DNA from: an uncultured bacterium
Lineage (GTDB): Bacteria; Verrucomicrobiota; Kiritimatiellia; PWTM01
Direction: 5' to 3'
DNA length: 64,000 nt
Assembly (NCBI GenBank): GCA_938010045.1
Contig: CALLFZ010000003.1
Coordinates: forward strand, 1 to 64,000
Shown here piece by piece: positions 19,708 to 29,997 of the stretch; the stretch's first letter is position 1, and each line of letters begins with the position of its first letter. Made by a program: the position numbers and the translations under genes. A model generated the notes under the pieces. The model was given only the letters and a program-made list of their open reading frames with translations, was not told the DNA's origin and searched no databases.

Positions 19708-21144
19708 ATGACGAGTCGAGATCTGCCCAAGCCGCTGTTCCTTGCATTGGCCACCGCCACTGTCGTGATGGGCGCGGGCATGTGGCTGATCGCGAACTGG
19801 CTCGTGAACGAACCGCCGCTGGAGTTGGCCGAGCGGCAGCCCGAACCCGAAACACCCCTCGCGGCTGCGCCGGCGGTGGACCTGCGGGGCCGCTTCGAAC
19901 GCGGCGAAGGGGCGCCATCTGCGATCACCTCCGCCTGGCCCCGTTTCCGGGGACCGTTGGCCGACGGCGTGTCTCACGAGGCGGTCCCGCTCGCCGCCAC
20001 GTGGCCGGAGTCCGGACCGCCCGTCCTATGGCAGATTGAGGTCGGCGACGGCCACGCCGGCCCAGCCGTCCGCCACGGCCGCGTCTATCTGCTGGACTAC
20101 GACGAACAGCGCCGCGAGGACGCGCTGCGATGTCTCTCGCTGGATGACGGCCGCGAGCTCTGGCGGCGGGCGTACGCCGTCGAGATCAAGCGCAACCATG
20201 GGATCTCGCGCACCGTGCCGGCGGTGTCGGAGCGCGTCGTCGTCTCGATCGGCCCGCGCTGTCACGTGCTGTGCGTGGACGCGTTCAGCGGCGATTTTCT
20301 CTGGGGCATCGACATGGTGCGTGAGTGGGATGCGAAGGAGCCGCTTTGGTACACCGCGCAATGTCCGCTGATCGACGGCGATACCGTCGTGTTGGCGCCG
20401 GCGGGCCGTGCGCTCATGATCGGCGTGGACGCCACCTCCGGCCGCGTGCTCTGGGAGACACCGAACGAGGACGGCTGGGCGATGTCGCACGCGTCGGTCA
20501 TGCCGATGGAGTTCGAAGGCCGGCGCATGTACGTCTACGCGGCGCTCGGCGGCTTGGTCGGCGTGGCGGCGGATGGTCCGCAGCCGGGCCGGATTCTCTG
20601 GAAGACCGCCGAGTGGCGCGCGACGGTGCAGGCGCCCTCCGCGCTGCCGCTGCCGGGCGGCCGCGTGCTGATCACCGCCGGCTACGGCGCCGGCAGCGCG
20701 CTCTTCCGTCTGGTACCTGAGGGCGAAGGGTTCCGCGCCGACCTCGTATGGCGCGCCGAAAAAACCGTGTTCGCGGCAGAACAACAAACGCCGATTTTTC
20801 ATCGCGACCTACTGTTTGCCGTCCTGCCGAACGACGGCGGCGCGTTGCGTCGGCAGCTGGTCGGCTACGATCCGGCCGGACGCCGTGTGTGGGCGAGCGG
20901 TCCGCAACGGCGCTTCGGCCTCGGCCCGTTGCTGGTCGCCGCCGCGGACGACCGGCTGTTGGTCATGGATGACGAGGGCACGTTGACGATGGCGCGAGCC
21001 TCGGCCGAAGGGTATCGTGAACTGGCCCGCGCGACGGTGTTGCCGAAGGCCCGCGACTCTTGGGGGCCGATGGCGCTGGTGGACGGGCGGCTCCTCGCGC
21101 GGGAATCGAGACGGCTGATCTGTTTGGATCTACGGCAACCGTGA
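19708..21144 (+). CDS. Membrane-anchored PQQ-type beta-propeller protein
   Basis: This 478-residue protein from ATG 19708 has one N-terminal membrane helix (PLFLALATATVVMGAGMWLIANW) and an acidic/Pro-rich linker. An eight-blade-like propeller follows, with the opening AWPRFRGPLADGVS and repeated blades of the type GRELWRR, SGRVLWETP and GRILWKTAEW. These Trp-docking-like repeats resemble quinoprotein dehydrogenases and BamB. I see no calcium/PQQ catalytic signature of alcohol dehydrogenases, so it may be a structural or electron-transfer-associated propeller on the outer face of the inner membrane. It opens the redox operon, and its stop overlaps the next start (GTGA). Confidence 0.8.
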   Translation: MTSRDLPKPLFLALATATVVMGAGMWLIANWLVNEPPLELAERQPEPETPLAAAPAVDLRGRFERGEGAPSAITSAWPRFRGPLADGVSHEAVPLAATWPESGPPVLWQIEVGDGHAGPAVRHGRVYLLDYDEQRREDALRCLSLDDGRELWRRAYAVEIKRNHGISRTVPAVSERVVVSIGPRCHVLCVDAFSGDFLWGIDMVREWDAKEPLWYTAQCPLIDGDTVVLAPAGRALMIGVDATSGRVLWETPNEDGWAMSHASVMPMEFEGRRMYVYAALGGLVGVAADGPQPGRILWKTAEWRATVQAPSALPLPGGRVLITAGYGAGSALFRLVPEGEGFRADLVWRAEKTVFAAEQQTPIFHRDLLFAVLPNDGGALRRQLVGYDPAGRRVWASGPQRRFGLGPLLVAAADDRLLVMDDEGTLTMARASAEGYRELARATVLPKARDSWGPMALVDGRLLARESRRLICLDLRQP

Positions 21145-22091
21145 CGGGCGTGCGAACAAGGGCGGTGGCGGTCGGGGTGGTGCTGGCGGCCGGCGCGCTG
21201 GCGCGCGAGGGGCCCGGCCCGGCCTTCACGCTGAACCTCGACCCGCTGCGGCGCGTGCCTGAGCACTGGCTCGTCTGGACCGAACTGGCGCCGCTGCGGA
21301 CGAATCTCGCCGGTCTGTCGGCGATTGCGGTCGCGTCGGAGGGGCGCTTTGCGATCGTCGCGGGCCGCATGCTGCGGCGCGGACATCTGCGCGAGCCGCC
21401 GGCGCGCGACTGGGCGGACGAGCTGCCCGGCCCGGGCCGGGCCGCTGCGTTTGCACCGGATGGCGCGCTGCTGGTCGCGCTGGACCGCACCTGGGTGGAA
21501 TATCCGCCCGACGGTGTCGAGCCGGTCGAAGGGCCCACGCTCTCGTCCTCGTCCCGCCTCACCTCGATCGTCGCCACCACGGGCCACGTCTGGCTGGCGG
21601 ACTTCGGGGAGCGGCTTGTCTGGGTGTTCGACCGGCGCGGCACGCTGCGCGCCCAGATCCGCGGCGCGGATTCCCACGGCTTCGTACTGCCCAGCGCCCA
21701 CTTTGATCTCGCGCCCGCGGGTCCTGATCAGGTCTGGATCGTCAATCCGGGCGAGCTCCGCGTGGAGCTGTGGACTCTGGAGGGCCGCCGGCTCCGCCAC
21801 TGGGGGCGCCCCGGCGTCGCGATCGAAGGTTTTTGCGGCTGTTGCAATCCGACCGATATCGCGGTGCTGCCGGACGGCTCGATTGCGACGGCGGAGAAAG
21901 GCATTGTGCGCGTGAAGGTCCACCGGCCGGACGGCGTGCTGGAGAGCGTCGTCGCGGCGCCGGCGCAGTTTGCGGAGGACACGGTGGGGCTAGACCTGGC
22001 GGCCGACGCCGCCGGTCGCCTCTACGTGGCCGACCCGGCGCGGCGCGCTGTGCGGATCTTCGAGCGCAGGGCAGGAGGGTCTCGACCGTGA
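21141..22091 (+). CDS. Exported NHL-repeat propeller protein with FCGCCNP motif
   Basis: This 316-residue protein has a GTG start at 21141 overlapping the previous stop; GTG 21150 is an alternative. A hydrophobic leader (AVAVGVVLAAGALAREG) is followed by NHL/SMP-30-like blades, e.g. GLSAIAVASEGRFAIV, GHVWLADFGERLVWVFDRRG, LDLAADAAGRLYVADPARRAV. In one loop lies GFCGCCNPTDIAVLPDGS, which places three Cys in five residues, a possible metal, haem or disulfide site in an otherwise Cys-poor protein. It is probably periplasmic and may dock with the Tat ferredoxin encoded two genes downstream. No enzyme activity can be named. Confidence 0.7.
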   Translation: MTGVRTRAVAVGVVLAAGALAREGPGPAFTLNLDPLRRVPEHWLVWTELAPLRTNLAGLSAIAVASEGRFAIVAGRMLRRGHLREPPARDWADELPGPGRAAAFAPDGALLVALDRTWVEYPPDGVEPVEGPTLSSSSRLTSIVATTGHVWLADFGERLVWVFDRRGTLRAQIRGADSHGFVLPSAHFDLAPAGPDQVWIVNPGELRVELWTLEGRRLRHWGRPGVAIEGFCGCCNPTDIAVLPDGSIATAEKGIVRVKVHRPDGVLESVVAAPAQFAEDTVGLDLAADAAGRLYVADPARRAVRIFERRAGGSRP

Positions 22092-22312
22092 CGGCAACCA
22101 CCTCAACGTCCAGCCGCCGCGAATGGCTCCGGACTCTGGGCCGCGCGGCGGGATTGGGCGGCCTCGCCGCGTTGCTCGCGCGCGCCGCGGCAACCCACCG
22201 GCCGCGTCGCGCCGTAACCGCGTGCGGGGCGTGTCCCTGGCAGGTCGGCTGTACGGTGTCGCCGGATCTCTGCGGTGCGGTCCGGCCGATCGCCCCACCG
22301 GAGCGCTCATGA
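22088..22312 (+). CDS. Tiny Tat-exported four-cysteine protein
   Basis: This 74-residue product has a GTG start that overlaps the NHL gene stop. The N-terminus is a Tat signal: SRREWLRTLG followed by a hydrophobic AAGLGGLAALLARAAA. The mature part is only about 35 residues and carries Cys46-x2-Cys49-x5-Cys55-x6-Cys62. Tat export of so small a protein suggests it is folded around a cofactor (an Fe-S cluster or metal) before transport, or is carried as a partner of the next Tat protein. Translational coupling on both sides (GTGA, ATGA) argues that it is a real gene. I know no family for it. Confidence 0.65.
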   Translation: MTATTSTSSRREWLRTLGRAAGLGGLAALLARAAATHRPRRAVTACGACPWQVGCTVSPDLCGAVRPIAPPERS

Positions 22313-22938
22313 TGACCACGAACTCCTCCTCTGCCGGTTCCTCGAACGGACGGCGCGAGTTTCTGCGGCGCGGCGCCGCGGCGGCCGCCGGCGCGGTCGT
22401 GGCCGGGCTGGCGGGCGTCGCGGCGCGCGGCGCGGTCTCGCGCGATGGAATGGTCTGGCAGATCAACCCCGCCCGCTGCGTGCAGTGCGGCCGCTGCATG
22501 ACCCACTGTGTGCTCACGCCCTCGGCCGTCAAGTGCGTGCATACCTACGCGATGTGCGGCTACTGCCGGTTTTGCTTCGGCTATTTCGATCCGGGCGCGC
22601 CGGAGCTGACCACCGCCGCCGAGAACCAGATGTGCCCGACCGGCGCGATCCGTCGCCGCTTCATCGAGCCGCCGTATTACGAGTATTCGATCCTCGAGGA
22701 TCTGTGCACCGGCTGCGGCAAGTGCGTGAAGGGCTGCAACACATTCGGCAACGGCTCGCTGCAGCTTCAGATCCTTCACGATCGCTGCGTGCAGTGCAAC
22801 GAGTGCGCGATTGCGCGCCGCTGCCCCGCGCAGGCGATCGAACGCGTTCCGCTGGCGAAGTGGAACCGCATGAAATCCGAGTTCGGGGCGGTGCCCGCCG
22901 CCGTCTGGCAACACCGGGAGCCGGACGCGAATGCTTGA
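22309..22938 (+). CDS. Tat-exported polyferredoxin
   Basis: This 209-residue protein has a twin-arginine signal (GRREFLRRG then an Ala-rich stretch) and up to four [4Fe-4S] sites. The motifs are Cys57/60/63/67, then Cys83/86/89 with Cys109-Pro, then Cys133/136/139/143 and Cys160/163/166/172. It resembles electron-transfer subunits of periplasmic oxidoreductases (NapG/DmsB type). It overlaps the following membrane polyferredoxin gene by 8 nt. That pair recalls NapG-NapH, which pass electrons between the quinone pool and the periplasm. There is no molybdopterin catalytic subunit in the operon. Confidence 0.85.
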   Translation: MMTTNSSSAGSSNGRREFLRRGAAAAAGAVVAGLAGVAARGAVSRDGMVWQINPARCVQCGRCMTHCVLTPSAVKCVHTYAMCGYCRFCFGYFDPGAPELTTAAENQMCPTGAIRRRFIEPPYYEYSILEDLCTGCGKCVKGCNTFGNGSLQLQILHDRCVQCNECAIARRCPAQAIERVPLAKWNRMKSEFGAVPAAVWQHREPDANA

Positions 22939-24241
22939 GCGTCGCGTCGTTCCCCGAGCCGGCGCTCTCGCGCTGATCGTCGCCGCCGCAGTGTCCGCGG
23001 ACGCGGCCGAGCAGCGCTTCCCGAAACCCGATTTCAAATCGGGTTATGTCCAGCCCGTTTATCACCCGCCGACCCCCGCGCGCAGTGCGGTGCGCGAATG
23101 GGCCGATGTCGCCGTGTTGGCGGCGGCGCTGGGCGCCGCGGCGTGGCTGGCGCTGCGCGCTCGCTCGCGGCGCGGCCTCTGGGCGTTGTCGGTGGCCTCG
23201 CTGGTGTGGTTCGGTCTGGTGCGCAAGGGGTGCATTTGCCCGGTCGGCTCGATCCACAACGTCGCGCTGGCGCTCGTGGATCCGGTGTATGGGCTTCCGC
23301 TGGTCACCGCGCTGATCTTCGCACTTCCGCTGGTGGCCGCGCTCCTCTGGGGGCGGGTCTTTTGCGCCGCGGTCTGTCCGCTCGGTGTGATCCAGGACCT
23401 GGTGGTGTGGCGTCCGGTCCGCCTGCCGACCGCGCTGAACCGCGCGCTCGGTATGCTCGGCCCGACCGTGCTGGCCTTCGGGATCGCGTTGACGGCGGCT
23501 GGCGCGGGCTTCTGGATCTGCCGCTACGATCCGTTCGTCGGGCTCTATCGCCGCAGCGGGCCCGCCGGCATGATCGCAACGGGCATCGGGCTGCTGCTGA
23601 TCGGCGTGGTCGTTGCACGCCCCTACTGCCGCTTCTTCTGTCCGTACGGAGTGCTGCTCTCGTGGGGCTCGCGCCTGTCGCGACGCCATCTCGGCATCAC
23701 GCCGGACGAATGCATCCAGTGCCGGCTTTGCGAACGCTCATGTCCGTTCGATGCGATTCGTGGACCCGAGCCGCCTCACGTCGATCGCTCCGCGGCGCGG
23801 CGCGCGCTGGTTCGAGCGCTGTGGGCCGCTCCGCTTTTCGTGGCGGGGGCCGCGTGGGCCGGGCGCGCGGCGCTCGATGCGCTGGCCCCGGTGGTGCATC
23901 CGGCTGTTGCGCTCGAACGGGAACTCCGCGCCGAGGACGCCGCCGGCACGCCCGACCTCACCTGGGAGACCCGAGTGTTTCGTCTCTCCGGTGAGCCGCG
24001 CGAATCGGCCGCCGCGGCGGCCGCCGCCGCGCGCCATCGGCTTCGCCTCGCCGGACTGTGGGCCGGCGCGTTCGTGGGTTTCGTCGGCGCTGGGCGGATC
24101 GTCGCCTCGGTGCGCCGCAGCGACCGCCGCGAGTGGGTGCCCGACCGCGGTGAGTGCCTGAGCTGCGGCCGCTGCTTCGCGCACTGCCCGCGGGAGTACG
24201 TGCGGCTGGGGCGGCTCGACGGTCCGATGGGAAATCCGTAA
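22931..24241 (+). CDS. NapH/NosR-like membrane polyferredoxin
   Basis: This 436-residue protein has a short leader, four to six membrane helices and two membrane-edge CxxxCP motifs of NapH/CcoG type (FCAAVCPLGVIQDL and YCRFFCPYGVLLSWG), plus CICPVGS earlier. A ferredoxin site CIQCRLCERSCPFDAI follows, then two more hydrophobic segments, and a final site CLSCGRCFAHCPREYV at the C-terminus. This arrangement fits an inner-membrane electron conduit between quinol or cytoplasmic donors and the exported polyferredoxin encoded just upstream. The last domain after residue 290, with its extra membrane helix and fourth cluster, is longer than in NapH. Confidence 0.85.
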   Translation: MLERRVVPRAGALALIVAAAVSADAAEQRFPKPDFKSGYVQPVYHPPTPARSAVREWADVAVLAAALGAAAWLALRARSRRGLWALSVASLVWFGLVRKGCICPVGSIHNVALALVDPVYGLPLVTALIFALPLVAALLWGRVFCAAVCPLGVIQDLVVWRPVRLPTALNRALGMLGPTVLAFGIALTAAGAGFWICRYDPFVGLYRRSGPAGMIATGIGLLLIGVVVARPYCRFFCPYGVLLSWGSRLSRRHLGITPDECIQCRLCERSCPFDAIRGPEPPHVDRSAARRALVRALWAAPLFVAGAAWAGRAALDALAPVVHPAVALERELRAEDAAGTPDLTWETRVFRLSGEPRESAAAAAAAARHRLRLAGLWAGAFVGFVGAGRIVASVRRSDRREWVPDRGECLSCGRCFAHCPREYVRLGRLDGPMGNP

Positions 24242-24251
24242 AGGAGACGGC

Positions 24252-25994
24252 ATGAGCGCCGACCGCGCCCCGATTGCCCCCGTCCTCGCCGCTCTGCTGC
24301 GCGGGTTGCTGTTCGGCGTGGGCTTCGTCGCGGCGGTGGCGGGCACGATTGCGCTGCTCAACTGCCTGCAGCTCCGCCGCGCCGACCCATTGAACTCCCC
24401 GCTCCGTCTGGAGGCGATCCGCGCCGCGCAGGCGAATCCCTCGAACGCTGACCTTGTGGCCGAGGCTCGCCGCATTGATCTGCTGGCCCGTCGCGCGTTT
24501 TTTGCCAGCCAGATGCTCATGCATCGCGCCGGCATGCTGCTCTGGGTTGGCGCGGCGCTGCTCCTCGGCGCACTCGGCGGCGCGCGCTGGCTCGAACCGC
24601 GCGTTGCGCCGCCCGGTTCGCCGCTGCCGAGCCCCGCGGCCGGCGAACGCGCCGCCCGCGCCGCTCGCCGCGCGGTGTGCGCCTATCTCGCGCTGCTTCT
24701 GGCCGGCGGCGCCGCGGCCTCATGGGCGCTGCGGGGGTCCGCCCGGTCCGACGCCGCCCTACGCGATGCGCCGCCTGAACCGCCTGGGGCATCCGCCCCC
24801 GAACCCGCCGATGCGCCCGATCTCGATCCTCCGCCCGACGCGTGGTGCGCCTTCCGCGGACCGTTCGGCCGTGGCGGCACCGAAACGCCTGCGCCGCTGC
24901 GCTGGGATGTGCCCGCCGGCCGAAACGTCCGCTGGAGCGTTGAGGTCCCCCGCGCGGGCTTCAGTTCGCCCATCGTGTGGGGCCACCGCGTCTTCCTTAC
25001 CGGCGCGGATGCTTCCGTCCGCGAACTCTACGCGTTTGACGCGGACACCGGCCAACTGCTCTGGCGTCACGAGGCGCGCGACGTGCCTGGGTCTCCCGCC
25101 ACGCCGCCCAAAACGAGTGAAGAAGTCGGCTACGCCGCGCCGACGCCCACAACCGACGGTCGGCGGATCTATGCATTGTTCGGCACCGGCGATCTCGTCG
25201 CGTGCGACCTCGACGGCCACCGCGTTTGGGCGCGCAACCTGGGTGTTCCGAAGAATCCCTATGGCCATTCCTCCTCGCCGTTGGTGGTCCGCGGCCGGCT
25301 CATCGTGCAGTTCGATGACGAGACCGGCGGTCGGTTGCTGGCGCTCGACGGCGCCACCGGCCGCACGATCTGGGAAACCCGACGCACGGTGCGCCCCGGC
25401 TGGTCCACGCCGGTCGCGGCGGTGCGGGAGGGGCGCATCCGCATCGGCGTCCTCGCGTCGCCGGTGTTGGGGGTGTACGACTGGGCCGACGGGCGCGAGC
25501 TTTGGCGCGTCGGCGAGCTCGAGGCGGAAATTGGCGTGTCGCCGGCCTTCGCCGATGGTCGCTGGTATGCCGGCAACGAGAATACCCGCTTTGTGGCAGT
25601 GGACGACGTCGACGGCCGCGTGCTTTGGGAAACCGACGAGGACTTGCCTGACGTCGCATCGCCGCTCGTCTGGCGCGGACTGCTCGTGCTGGCGGCCTCC
25701 TCCGGCATTGTCACGGCGCGCGACGCGGCCACCGGTGAGAAACTGTGGATGCAGGAATGGGACGAGGGCTTCTACGCGTCGCCGGTCGCCGCGGGCGACG
25801 CGATCTACCTCATCGACCGCGGCGGACGCGCGCGCGTTGTGCGCGCCTCGCGCGAGTTCGAACTGATCGCCGATAACCCGATCGGCGAGGAGTGCGGCGC
25901 CACGCCCGCTCCGGTGGGCGGCCGTCTCTACGTGCGCACCCAGCACCGGCTGATCGCCATCGAGGAGACGCCCGCTTCCTCCGCCGCCCCGTGA
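24252..25994 (+). CDS. Multi-span membrane protein with PQQ-type beta-propeller
   Basis: This 580-residue protein has three N-terminal hydrophobic helices (LLFGVGFVAAVAGTIALLN, AGMLLWVGAALLLGALGG, CAYLALLLAGGAAASWAL) and an acidic Pro-rich linker. A propeller follows, opening with CAFRGPFGRGG and carrying blades such as DADTGQLLWRHEA, DGATGRTIWETRR and DVDGRVLWETDED. It differs from the first propeller protein by its three-helix anchor. The start is preceded by AAGGAGA 10 nt after the polyferredoxin stop. Two PQQ-like propellers in one operon suggest the redox complex has a large periplasmic face. Whether PQQ is bound cannot be decided. Confidence 0.8.
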   Translation: MSADRAPIAPVLAALLRGLLFGVGFVAAVAGTIALLNCLQLRRADPLNSPLRLEAIRAAQANPSNADLVAEARRIDLLARRAFFASQMLMHRAGMLLWVGAALLLGALGGARWLEPRVAPPGSPLPSPAAGERAARAARRAVCAYLALLLAGGAAASWALRGSARSDAALRDAPPEPPGASAPEPADAPDLDPPPDAWCAFRGPFGRGGTETPAPLRWDVPAGRNVRWSVEVPRAGFSSPIVWGHRVFLTGADASVRELYAFDADTGQLLWRHEARDVPGSPATPPKTSEEVGYAAPTPTTDGRRIYALFGTGDLVACDLDGHRVWARNLGVPKNPYGHSSSPLVVRGRLIVQFDDETGGRLLALDGATGRTIWETRRTVRPGWSTPVAAVREGRIRIGVLASPVLGVYDWADGRELWRVGELEAEIGVSPAFADGRWYAGNENTRFVAVDDVDGRVLWETDEDLPDVASPLVWRGLLVLAASSGIVTARDAATGEKLWMQEWDEGFYASPVAAGDAIYLIDRGGRARVVRASREFELIADNPIGEECGATPAPVGGRLYVRTQHRLIAIEETPASSAAP

Positions 25995-28408
25995 GCCGCC
26001 CCGCCCAGCCGCCCCGAGCCGCCCCGCCAGATCTGGCCGAGGTGGACCGGCTGATTGCGGATATCGGCGGATCGGCCGAACAGGCGCTGCCGCTGCTGCA
26101 GGCGATGCAGGCGCGGTGGGGGTATCTCCCCGAGGCCGCGCTGCGCCGGATCTGCGAGCGAACCGACATCCGTCCGGCCGATCTCTGGAGCGTCGCGACC
26201 TTCTACCCGCAGCTCCGCCACCGGCCCGCCGGCCGCCACTCGATCTGCGTGTGCGTCGGCACGGCCTGCCACGTGAAAGGCGCCGAACGCGTGTACGACG
26301 CGCTCGCGCGCGAACTGGAGCTGGCCGCGGGCGAGGACACCGACGCCGCGGGTGAATACACGGTGCGCAAGGTCGCGTGCCTCGGCTGCTGCACGCTGGC
26401 GCCCGTTGTGATGCTCGGTCGCGTCACCTACGGCCATCGCACCGCCGACAACATCCGCGAGATGCTCGATGACTTCGCCGCGCGCGCCGCAGACGAGCGC
26501 GGAGATCCGGTCGTGGACGCTTCGCCCGAGGCAACGGGGGCCGCCGCCGGCGAAGTGCGGATCGGCCTGGGCTCCTGCTGTATCGCCGGCGGCAGCGCCG
26601 ATGTCGAGGCCGCGCTGCGCTCGGCCGTTCGTTCGCTCGGCGTGCCGATCCGCATCCGGCCCGTTGGGTGCGTCGGCATGTGCCACCGCACGCCGCTGCT
26701 CGAGGTGGTCCGGCCGGGCGCCGAACCGGTGCGCTACGAGCGAGTGCGCGCCGCCGACGTCGAGGCGATCGTGCGGCGCCACTTCAGCGACGACCGCTGG
26801 CGCCGCTGGCGGGCCCGCGCGGCAGAGGCGCTCGATCGCTGGCTGGGCCGCGGCCACGGCGCGTCCGGACCGGCGCGCGCGCTCGATCCACGCGACCGCC
26901 CCGTCGAGGCCTTCCTCTGCCGCCAGCTCCACATCGCTACGGAAGACTGCGGCGCGCTGCATCCGCTCGATCTCGACCAGTACCGCGCGGGCGGTGGCCT
27001 GCGGGCGCTCGAGGACTGCCTCGCGCGGCGCACGCCCGAGGAGGTCATCGCCGCGATCGAGGCCTCTGGCCTGCGCGGCCGGGGCGGTGCCGGCTTCCCG
27101 ACCGGCCGTAAATGGCGGCTCGTGCGGGAGGCGCCCGGCCGCGACCGCTACGTGATCTGCAACGGCGACGAGGGTGACCCCGGCGCGTTCATGGACCACA
27201 TGCTCTTCGAGTCCTATCCGTACCGCGTTCTCGAAGGCATGATCATCGCCGCCTGGGCCGTTGGCGCGCGGGACGGCATCCTCTATATCCGCGAGGAGTA
27301 TCCGCTGGCCGTCCGCCGCATGCAGGCGGCGATCGAGCGTCTCCGCGCGGCGCGCGTGCTCGGTGCCAACATCCTCGGCTCGGGCGTCTCGATCGAGCTG
27401 CGCATCGTGCAGGGTGGCGGCGCGTTCGTCTGCGGCGAGGAAACTGCGCTGATCGAGTCCCTCCACGGCCGCCGCGGGGCGCCCGTGCTGCGCCCGCCGT
27501 TCCCCGCGCAGCGCGGATTCCGCGGCGCGCCCACGCTCGTGAACAACTGCGAGACGCTCGCGATGGTGCCGTGGATTCTGCGCCACGGCCCCGAGGCCTT
27601 CGCGGCGATCGGCACCGCGCACAGCAAGGGCACGAAGGTCTTCGCGCTCGCCGGCAAGGTCGCGCGCGGCGGCCTGATCGAGGTACCCATGGGCATCACG
27701 CTGCGCGAGATCATCGAGGACATCGGCGGCGGCGCCGCGAACGGCCGGCCGTGGAAGGCCGTGCAGGTCGGGGGGCCGTCCGGCGGCTGCATTCCGAAGT
27801 CGCTCGGCGACACGCCCGTGGACTTCGAGGCGCTCACCGGCGTCGGCGCGATGATGGGCAGCGGCGGCCTCGTCGTGCTCGACGACACCGACTGCATGGT
27901 TGATGTCGCCCGCTATTTCATCTCGTTCACCTGCCGCGAGTCGTGCGGCAAATGCACGCCCTGCCGCGTCGGCACCCGCCGCATGCTCGAGATCCTCGAC
28001 CGTCTCTGCGAGGGCCGCGCGGGGCCGGAGGACCTCGACCGGCTCGCTCAGATCGCGGAGACCACCCGTCGCCAGAGTCTGTGCGGCCTGGGCAAGACCG
28101 CGCCGAACCCGGTGCTGACCACCCTGCGGTACTTCCGCGACGAGTATGAGGCCCACCTGCGGGGCGAATGCCCCGCCGGCCGCTGCGTGAACCTCATCGC
28201 CTACGAGGTCGGCCCCGAGTGCATCGGCTGTACTCGCTGCGCGCAGGTGTGTCCTGTCGCCGCGATCGAGCCCGATCCGATGCGCCGGCACGCGATCGAC
28301 GAGCCCACGTGTGTGCGCTGCGACCTCTGCCGCGCCGGCTGCCCCACCGGCGCGATCCGCATCGTCCCGCGCCGCCGCGCCGCTTCGGCGCGAACGGAGG
28401 CATCGTGA
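25991..28408 (+). CDS. NuoE-NuoF fusion with extra [2Fe-2S] domain and 2[4Fe-4S] ferredoxin tail
   Basis: This 805-residue protein starts at GTG 25991, overlapping the previous stop. Residues 10-165 form a NuoE-type thioredoxin-fold [2Fe-2S] domain (Cys88, Cys93, Cys130, Cys134). Residues 188-260 are a second thioredoxin-like domain (SCCIAGG, then Cys227-x3-Cys231) as in HydB/HndC subunits. Residues 350-700 are NuoF: the FMN/NADH sites GRGGAGFPTGRKW at 363-375, GDEGDPGAFMD and CGEETALIESLHG, and the N3 cluster Cys652/655/658 and Cys698. The tail holds two [4Fe-4S] sites (744/747/750/754 and 774/777/780/784). It should oxidise or reduce NAD(H) and pass electrons through many clusters. In bifurcating hydrogenases NuoE and NuoF are usually separate; here they are one chain without a hydrogenase. 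Confidence 0.9.
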   Translation: MSRPAQPPRAAPPDLAEVDRLIADIGGSAEQALPLLQAMQARWGYLPEAALRRICERTDIRPADLWSVATFYPQLRHRPAGRHSICVCVGTACHVKGAERVYDALARELELAAGEDTDAAGEYTVRKVACLGCCTLAPVVMLGRVTYGHRTADNIREMLDDFAARAADERGDPVVDASPEATGAAAGEVRIGLGSCCIAGGSADVEAALRSAVRSLGVPIRIRPVGCVGMCHRTPLLEVVRPGAEPVRYERVRAADVEAIVRRHFSDDRWRRWRARAAEALDRWLGRGHGASGPARALDPRDRPVEAFLCRQLHIATEDCGALHPLDLDQYRAGGGLRALEDCLARRTPEEVIAAIEASGLRGRGGAGFPTGRKWRLVREAPGRDRYVICNGDEGDPGAFMDHMLFESYPYRVLEGMIIAAWAVGARDGILYIREEYPLAVRRMQAAIERLRAARVLGANILGSGVSIELRIVQGGGAFVCGEETALIESLHGRRGAPVLRPPFPAQRGFRGAPTLVNNCETLAMVPWILRHGPEAFAAIGTAHSKGTKVFALAGKVARGGLIEVPMGITLREIIEDIGGGAANGRPWKAVQVGGPSGGCIPKSLGDTPVDFEALTGVGAMMGSGGLVVLDDTDCMVDVARYFISFTCRESCGKCTPCRVGTRRMLEILDRLCEGRAGPEDLDRLAQIAETTRRQSLCGLGKTAPNPVLTTLRYFRDEYEAHLRGECPAGRCVNLIAYEVGPECIGCTRCAQVCPVAAIEPDPMRRHAIDEPTCVRCDLCRAGCPTGAIRIVPRRRAASARTEAS

Positions 28409-29997
28409 GCGTGCGCCTCGCCATGGACGGGCAGTCGGTCGAGGTGCCCGACGGTGCCACGCTGCTCGATGCCGCGCGCGCGCTCGGCCTGCGCATCCCG
28501 ACGTTGTGCCATCGCGACGGCCTACCGCACTACACCTCCTGCATGGTCTGCGCGGTCCGCGATGTCGCCAGCGGCCGCCTCTTGCCTGCCTGCTCCTACC
28601 CGGCCGCCGAGGGGATGGAGCTTGAGGCCTCGTCGGACGAGGTTCGCGCGGCGCGCCGCCGCGTGCTCGAGCTGCTGCTCGGTGAGCACGTCGGCGACTG
28701 CGAGGCGCCCTGTCGCCGCGCCTGCCCCGCGCGCCTGCGCATCCCCGAGCTGCTACGGAATGCGGCGCGCGCCGATTGGTCGGCCGCTGCCCGACTCGCC
28801 GCCGAGGACCTCGTGCTGCCTGCCGTGCTCGGCCGTATTTGCCCCGCGCCGTGCGAACGGAGCTGTCGGCGCGCGGACCGCGACGCACCGGTGGCGATCC
28901 GTGAACTGCATCGCCGCCTCGGCGAATCGTCGGCGTTGGGCCCCGCGCGCGCCCGCGCCGCCCGTTCGGCGGCACGGGGAGGCCGTGTCCTCGTCGTCGG
29001 CGCCGGTCCCGCGGGCCTCGCCGCAGCCGTGGTGCTGCGTCGCGCGGGCGTCGAGGTGCGTCTCCTCGACCGTGCGCCGCGTCCCGGCGGGGCGCTCCGC
29101 GATCCGGCGCTCGCCGATCGCCTGCCCACCGCTGTGCTCGACGCCGAGATTGAAGAGGTGCTCGCGGCGGGGATCCCCTTCGAAGGCGGCGTCGACATCC
29201 GCGAACCCGGTATGCTCGACGAAGGCCTCCGCGATTTCGACGCGGTCGTGCTCGCCTGCGGGCCACTTGCGCCGACGGCGATCGAATCGCTCGGCCTGCG
29301 CGCGACTGGCCGCGGCGTTGCCGTGACCGCCCCGACGCATCAAACCTCGCGCGCGGGCGTCTTCGCCGCCGGCGCCGCCGTGCAGCCGATGCGCCTCGCC
29401 GTCCGCGCCGTCGCCGACGGGCGCCTCGCCGCGGAGGGGGTGCTCGCATGGCTCGAACTTCGCGCTGGCACACCCTGGCCCGCCCGCTTCGATAGCCGCA
29501 TCGGCCGTCTCGCTCCCGGCGAAGTCGAACAGTGGATGCCCGACGCCTCGCCGGCTCCCCGCTCGTGGCCGGCCAACACCGCTGGAGCCGACGCCACGCT
29601 CGACCAGGTCGCCCGCGGCGAGGCGCTCCGCTGTCTCGGCTGCGATTGCCGCAAGGCGCGCAGTTGCCGCCTGCGCCGCCTCGCCGACGAATACGGCGCC
29701 ACCCAGACCCGCTTCGCCGCCGACTCGCGTCCGCCCGTGTTCCTCCGCCGTGACCATCCGCGCCTCGTCTACGAGCCCGGCAAGTGCATCAAGTGCGGCA
29801 TCTGCGTGCGGCTCGCCGCGCGCGCCAACGGCACGATGACGTTTCAACGCCGCGGGTACGAATCGCAGGTCGCGCCCGCCTTCAACGACGGCCTCGAAGC
29901 GGGGTTGGGCGAGGCCGCCGACGAGGCCGTGCGCGCCTGCCCCACCGCCGCGCTCGCATTTCGCGTCTGGGAGCCAATGTCCGGAGCCTACCGCTGA
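28405..29997 (+). CDS. [2Fe-2S]/FAD oxidoreductase subunit, NuoG-N plus reduced GltD-like domain
   Basis: This 530-residue protein has a GTG start overlapping the NuoEF stop. Residues 1-75 are a NuoG/HydA-type [2Fe-2S] domain (Cys35, 46, 49, 63). Cys99/103/107 and Cys146/150/154 are the Fe-S motifs of the GltD (glutamate synthase small chain) N-terminus. VLVVGAGPAGLAAAV at about 195-209 is the FAD Rossmann motif. The sequence then passes straight from the FDAVVLACG strand to the closing FAD strand (AGVFAAGAAV). The second Rossmann domain that binds NADPH in GltD is absent. The C-terminal part has CLGCDC and CIKCGICV motifs. It probably relays electrons between NuoEF and a partner through FAD without its own pyridine nucleotide site. 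Confidence 0.8.
   Translation: MSVRLAMDGQSVEVPDGATLLDAARALGLRIPTLCHRDGLPHYTSCMVCAVRDVASGRLLPACSYPAAEGMELEASSDEVRAARRRVLELLLGEHVGDCEAPCRRACPARLRIPELLRNAARADWSAAARLAAEDLVLPAVLGRICPAPCERSCRRADRDAPVAIRELHRRLGESSALGPARARAARSAARGGRVLVVGAGPAGLAAAVVLRRAGVEVRLLDRAPRPGGALRDPALADRLPTAVLDAEIEEVLAAGIPFEGGVDIREPGMLDEGLRDFDAVVLACGPLAPTAIESLGLRATGRGVAVTAPTHQTSRAGVFAAGAAVQPMRLAVRAVADGRLAAEGVLAWLELRAGTPWPARFDSRIGRLAPGEVEQWMPDASPAPRSWPANTAGADATLDQVARGEALRCLGCDCRKARSCRLRRLADEYGATQTRFAADSRPPVFLRRDHPRLVYEPGKCIKCGICVRLAARANGTMTFQRRGYESQVAPAFNDGLEAGLGEAADEAVRACPTAALAFRVWEPMSGAYR

Follow-up and report, generated by a model that had tools for sequence, protein, structure and literature searches.

A conserved family of tiny Tat-type proteins with four cysteines encoded in a Bfu-like redox operon

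Introduction

The window analyzed here, 64,000 nt of contig CALLFZ010000003.1 from an uncultured bacterium of the Kiritimatiellia, contains a reading frame of just 74 codons packed between the genes of an NHL beta-propeller protein and a ferredoxin. A preliminary description, made from the sequence of the window, regarded its product as a Tat-exported protein with four cysteines. The locus raises the question whether so small a frame is a gene at all and, if it is, what its product does beside these neighbors.

Results

A tiny gene inside a redox operon

The frame was located exactly, and the coupling at both ends proposed for it was observed as a 4-base overlap with each neighbor: its GTG overlaps the TGA of the preceding NHL gene as GTGA (22088–22091), and its own TGA (22310–22312) overlaps the ATG of the ferredoxin gene at 22309, the latter gene having a second in-frame ATG at 22312. 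The features discussed below are as follows.

19708–21144, + strand: PQQ-type beta-propeller upstream of the NHL gene (PQQ_2, 1.4e-18; start provisional; place conserved)
21141–22091, + strand: NHL beta-propeller protein with an invariant CCNP, codons 21840–21851 (Pfam NHL, E 1.6e-7); the start at 21141 was set by eye, at a GTG overlapping the preceding stop
22088–22312, + strand: tiny Tat-type Cys4 protein, 74 residues, GTG start (homologs, purifying selection)
22112–22132, + strand: twin-arginine motif SRREWLR of the tiny protein, residues 9–15 (R10 invariant in the family alignment A3)
22223–22273, + strand: Cys46, Cys49, Cys55 and Cys62 of the tiny protein, C-x2-C-x5-C-x6-C (sequence, alignment of relatives)
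22309–22938, + strand: Tat ferredoxin with 16 conserved Cys, room for four [4Fe-4S]; fused to the tiny protein in relatives
22931–24241, + strand: NapH/MauN-like membrane 4Fe-4S protein (TIGR02163, E 1e-11; place conserved)
24252–25994, + strand: PQQ-type beta-propeller with an N-terminal membrane part (PQQ_2, 2.2e-33)
25940–28408, + strand: fused NuoE–NuoF with a C-terminal 4Fe-4S pair, Bfu/Stn-like (Pfam, structure-sequence matches; start provisional)
28405–29997, + strand: short StnC/GltD-like flavoprotein with [2Fe-2S] and 4Fe-4S ends (StnC/NfnA matches; start provisional)

The ferredoxin, NapH-like and NuoEF neighbors bear out the placement of the tiny gene in a redox operon, and the order PQQ–NHL–tiny–ferredoxin–NapH–PQQ–NuoEF–GltD is common to most of the loci found. 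NuoEF matches Bfu, Stn and HydB subunits over most of its length (9n5u_B, 7t2r_B, 9mqx_B) and, with Pfam Fer4 at residues 776–823, has the BfuB trait of a NuoF core followed by an extra C-terminal 4Fe-4S part. The GltD-like protein matches StnC and NfnA, yet it is short (530 residues vs. 1178 in 9bov_A). It skips about 130 residues, 292–421 of 9bov_A, which we take to be the region where GltD-type proteins hold the NADPH domain; its third substrate may therefore not be NADPH.

Bfu and Stn (Sporomusa Nfn) complexes (PMC9304861, PMC7483475) have NuoE, NuoF with an extra C-terminal 4Fe-4S and an StnC/GltD-like partner, as does this operon. In the window, however, NuoE and NuoF are fused, and the operon also encodes the NapH-like protein, the ferredoxin, the tiny protein and the NHL and PQQ-type propellers; neither main text contains the word NapH or PQQ. 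Since the review, in the parts dealing with Bfu types, lists many third substrates and 17 clades with no assigned function, and its main text has neither NapH nor PQQ (PMC9304861), the operon is read, from its gene content, as an undescribed Bfu-like system probably reaching the periplasm. Searches of the open-license literature listed no description of it.

The exported ferredoxin and the NapH-like protein are also reminiscent of the NapG/NapH quinol dehydrogenase, where an exported 4Fe-4S protein adjoins a NapH-like membrane protein. However, both window proteins score well under the family cut-offs (the NapH-like one, 44.9 vs. 213 for TIGR02163, is below the NapH family threshold), and no nitrate reductase is present among the seven operon proteins scanned. 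In three Bacteroidota loci (L055, 4884–7386; L120, 4824–7323; L078, 4807–7298) the operon is preceded by two more exported WRGP-type propeller genes, judged PQQ-like by eye.

Phylogenetic distribution of the tiny gene

The neighboring ferredoxin was used as an anchor for finding loci. A search of 97 relatives (E <= 1e-15) yielded it in 27 genomes and 30 loci, three of the latter (L048, L049, L050) being second, more distant copies. These three Tat ferredoxins follow an ORF resembling, by eye, a PhnD-type substrate-binding protein, and no tiny gene was seen in their loci. A separate tiny gene lies directly upstream in 15 of the 27 best loci; seven have it fused to the ferredoxin (one of them, L046, a spacing variant assigned by eye), four have none in the locus, and one is cut by a contig end. 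In the latter genome (G073) another contig has a tiny gene at its edge, after an NHL gene. The four loci lacking an intact copy comprise G010, where the NHL and tiny genes stand together in this order on one contig and the ferredoxin and NapH-like genes on another; G094 (locus L037), with a broken remnant; and G020 and G038, the two remaining ferredoxin-bearing relatives, in which no tiny gene was found.

For a broader view, GTDB genomes were scanned with the ferredoxin alignment, and the best 80 named loci of at least 580 were searched blindly, on both strands, for a start of twin-arginine type combined with a hydrophobic segment and with the Cys pattern. This gave 63 matches in 63 of these 80 loci; the reverse strand of the 1.27 Mb and one mononucleotide shuffle of the DNA yielded no match. 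Homologs in syntenic operons, whose absence had been named beforehand as evidence against the gene, are thus found in 63 of the best 80 named loci of at least 580, and all 63 adjoin an NHL or a ferredoxin gene. The 17 negative loci include four variant or cut copies (L066 with no RR, L088 with RE, L102 with RQ, L115 cut), a fused form (L075), a copy in which Gly replaces one of the core cysteines (L114), and three loci whose contig begins too near the ferredoxin (L053, L060, L126). No tiny gene was found in the other eight of the best 80 of at least 580 (L054, L081, L085, L097, L116, L122, L127, L130); five of these retain the NHL gene, and L054, L116 and L122 have neither NHL nor PQQ1 matches.

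A profile of 64 tiny sequences (A3), searched against the same 97 relatives at E <= 1e-4, matches 23 of the 27 ferredoxin-bearing genomes and none of the 70 others (Fisher p 1.6e-18). Two genomes, that of the window (G000) and G006, contribute to the profile, and leaving both out gives 21 of 25; of the 24 matches in 23 genomes, one is the ferredoxin's own Tat signal in G040, and a copy in G002 (L024) was missed. The redox system is present in genomes labelled Bacteroidota, Chlorobiota, Verrucomicrobiota, Kiritimatiellota, Lentisphaerota and Firestonebacteria, including cultured strains; Mariniphaga anaerophila DSM 26910 and Marinifilum flexuosum DSM 21950 are cultured relatives with a tiny protein.

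Within the genus of the window, a homolog occupies the equivalent position in another genome (G001, locus L002; E 9.6e-9). Pairs of close relatives give dN/dS of 0.03–0.26 where it was computable, several distant pairs being saturated at silent sites; for the distant pair of the window and L022 (41% identity) it is 0.37. The overlaps with both neighbors would suit a frame that arose by chance, or one serving just as a leader to couple translation of the flanking genes. Against so improbable an origin stand the low dN/dS in close pairs, the occurrence of the gene with NHL alone, apart from the ferredoxin, the natural fusions to the ferredoxin, and the empty result on shuffled DNA. Hence we consider the tiny gene real and conserved across several bacterial phyla; Pfam and NCBIfam have no model for its family.

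Cysteine motif and ligand exchange

The four cysteines of the window protein are present as described, at residues 46, 49, 55 and 62. Their pattern, C-x2-C-x5-C-x6-C, holds for this protein but not for the family, being a local variant of the window's genus; the usual motif is C-x5-C-x2-C-x5-C. Among 76 unique tiny sequences the N-side Cys is present in 72, with spacing x5 in 71 and x4 in one, and the four sequences lacking it come from all four genomes of the window's genus. All four of these have a C-side Cys (spacings x6, x6, x10, x18), seen in only two of the 72 sequences that keep the N-side one. Judging from the alignment, the window's genus has exchanged the N-side Cys for one on the C side. 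As the initial searches required only three of the cysteines, the swap is no artifact of the search, while the invariance of the core cysteines in A3 is partly by construction, since they lie partly within the search pattern.

Twin-arginine signal and membrane helix

The twin-arginine signal SRREWLRTLG is present at residues 9–18 of the window protein, followed by a hydrophobic helix. In the 76 unique sequences the second position of the motif is R in 53, K in 21 and neither in two, so that R-R or R-K is found in 74, and the genome of the window encodes TatC (PF00902, E 6.5e-56). Based on the signal, the tiny protein is probably exported via Tat. The signal is not strict across the family, given the copies with no twin arginine (L066), RE (L088) and RQ (L102). 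The first of these, from Perlabentimonas gracilis, reads C-x2-C-C-x4-C in its Cys part, and may represent a switch away from Tat.

The 35-residue mature part ascribed to the window protein presupposes a cleavage site that is a guess, and we drop this wording: AxA past the hydrophobic stretch is seen in 13 of 76 relatives (AAA at residues 33–35 in the window protein), and AlphaFold2 predicts a single confident helix at residues 10–36. Given both observations, many members of the family may stay anchored in the membrane. The Cys part is modeled as disordered, with pLDDT < 50 at residues 41–59.

The suggestion that the protein would be among the smallest Tat substrates turned out unremarkable, as a predicted Tat target whose model spans 66 positions, TIGR02811, is already catalogued in NCBIfam. 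This family, the formate dehydrogenase region TAT target, likewise combines a very small predicted Tat protein with a neighboring redox enzyme. Only the signal part of the window protein matches it (residues 5–35; 10.8 bits vs. a cut-off of 48.45), and in a comparison with 12 tiny members a single one matched (best E 0.01). Searches of the open-license literature on the smallest Tat substrates likewise listed no description of this operon.

What the cysteines may bind

A full-text search for the spacing of the family motif turned up one paper, on E. coli RseC (PMC11729352). A close likeness is to RseC/MucC (PF04246; E. coli RseC, R. capsulatus RnfF), which, in the passages of PMC11729352 on its motif, has the same C-x5-C-x2-C-x5-C with the core C-x2-C-x5-C, in a small Cys part adjoining a membrane helix. 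The same passages report that a cluster sensitive to oxygen can be reconstituted in the N-terminal domain of E. coli RseC, its band at 420 nm being compatible with [4Fe-4S], and that the first Cys of the CX5CX2CX5C motif is dispensable; in both RseC and the tiny family this Cys is not always retained, and RseC is likewise linked to a membrane NADH/ferredoxin electron system (PMC11729352). The architectures differ: as far as those passages describe it, RseC has a cytoplasmic Cys domain ahead of two transmembrane helices and a C-terminal domain, whereas the tiny protein starts with a single helix and a Tat-type signal, its Cys part being predicted to face outward.

Beyond the Cys spacing no homology to RseC was detected, with an hhalign probability of 5.6 and scores equal to those of Cys-preserving decoys. 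The PF04246 profile produced weak matches, under its curated cut-off, to six of 64 tiny members (best E 0.14) and none in the genome of the window; 15 of 16 tested genomes with a tiny gene carry separate true RseC genes. A second similar arrangement is the EndoIII/MutY iron-sulfur loop (PF10576), part of a cytoplasmic DNA repair enzyme. In about 17 residues it holds C-x2-C-x5-C plus one preceding Cys, as in the tiny family, with x6 instead of x5 after the first Cys; the loops of the relatives read C-x6-C-x2-C-x5-C. Here too homology was not detected beyond the Cys spacing, PF10576 being absent among the Pfam matches and the hhalign probability equal to 2.5. The sole Pfam match of the window protein, DUF6455 (PF20056; 15.8 bits, E 0.015, cut-off 23.7), is noise, as it is seen in one of 64 tiny members and many unrelated frames score equally. 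A PDB search with the family profile gave no match (best E 0.57).

With no homology detected to RseC or the EndoIII loop, the cluster assignment rests on spacing and context, and the RseC precedent supports function by analogy, not family membership. By this analogy we infer a [4Fe-4S] cluster in the tiny protein. Zinc, a rubredoxin-like single iron or periplasmic disulfides seem improbable in its place. Four cysteines could bind zinc, and the apo model has no fold, but nearly all members have a Tat-type rather than a Sec signal, which suits insertion of a cofactor in the cytoplasm; the operon is rich in 4Fe-4S proteins, and RseC, with identical spacing, yields a [4Fe-4S]-type spectrum in the cited passages (PMC11729352).

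NHL propeller and ferredoxin as partners

Matches to the NHL gene in loci L051–L130, the best 80 named of at least 580, were kept if they were at least 400 bases long and had an intact frame. CCNP is present in all 64 ORFs kept, within an FxGCCNP that does not vary and is followed by E-K and R in every copy; vicinal cysteines of this kind resemble a functional site. In 52 of the 61 named cases with a CCNP-containing NHL ORF (best 80 of at least 580) the tiny gene comes after the NHL gene, with a median gap of 1 base (range –8 to 1350), and in eight Verrucomicrobia loci it stands directly ahead of it. In L096, L119 and G010 both genes have been relocated together, while in L067 4.6 kb separate the NHL gene from the tiny gene, which remains beside the ferredoxin. 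Adjacency and the joint moves with NHL tie the tiny gene to both the NHL and the ferredoxin genes, and the tiny protein probably contacts both partners.

In the seven fused loci of the 27 ferredoxin loci the Cys motif lies inside the ferredoxin, with one Tat signal each. On a tree of 99 ferredoxins (eight loci were dropped, two as duplicates and six as missed by the pattern) the fused state needs four changes, of which at least two are forced by well-supported branches. The AlphaFold2 model of a fused ferredoxin is poor (mean 59). One NHL protein (L127, 8957–9979) ends in CGQCEVDC, in a locus with no tiny gene; the Cys part may have been transferred to the NHL protein there, or the likeness may be due to chance.

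The tiny protein could also be a docking or assembly factor that anchors or matures the ferredoxin/NHL pair at the membrane and transfers no electrons, its cysteines binding a metal with a structural role or holding a cluster temporarily. Its small size, the signal-anchor-like helix, the fusion to ferredoxin in some lineages and the loss or breakage of the gene in some loci retaining the other genes fit such a role. We nevertheless regard it as rather unlikely, since the four cysteines are maintained while other residues drift (mean column identity in A3 is 27%), the motif is retained in the fused forms, and the relocation of the fourth Cys fits a metal or cluster bound in the final protein.

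Discussion

We propose, with a probability of about 0.6, that the tiny protein, anchored in the membrane or exported, carries a [4Fe-4S] and connects the ferredoxin to the NHL propeller within a complex that also contains a Bfu/Stn-like NADH module. Its core C-x2-C-x5-C and one further flanking Cys would hold one [4Fe-4S], loaded prior to export; Tat would then carry the protein out, and it would probably stay on or near the outer face of the inner membrane. On the cytoplasmic side of the conserved complex, the NADH module would be formed by the fused NuoEF and the short GltD-like protein; the rest would comprise the NapH-like membrane protein, the four-cluster Tat ferredoxin, the NHL protein with the invariant Cys-Cys-Asn-Pro, and the PQQ-type propellers. 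Positioned between ferredoxin and NHL propeller, the tiny protein may relay electrons or dock the pair, the electron path running probably from NADH to the periplasm.

More speculatively, the whole may be a trans-membrane complex of a new type, in which a bifurcating NADH/ferredoxin module drives, or is driven by, periplasmic beta-propeller chemistry. The tiny protein would then be the outermost wire, a membrane-held [4Fe-4S] with fewer than 40 residues past the helix, whose fourth ligand has switched sides of the core in one genus. This wider picture is tentative, and we hold it for doubtful rather than probable.

The family adds a small protein to a redox system of broad taxonomic spread, cultured strains included, and, as the split and fused forms reveal its partners, its role is directly testable. 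The window's genus would offer a natural case in which a minimal iron-sulfur motif has exchanged one of its ligands, and the protein may serve as a small cargo for probing how Tat assesses folding.
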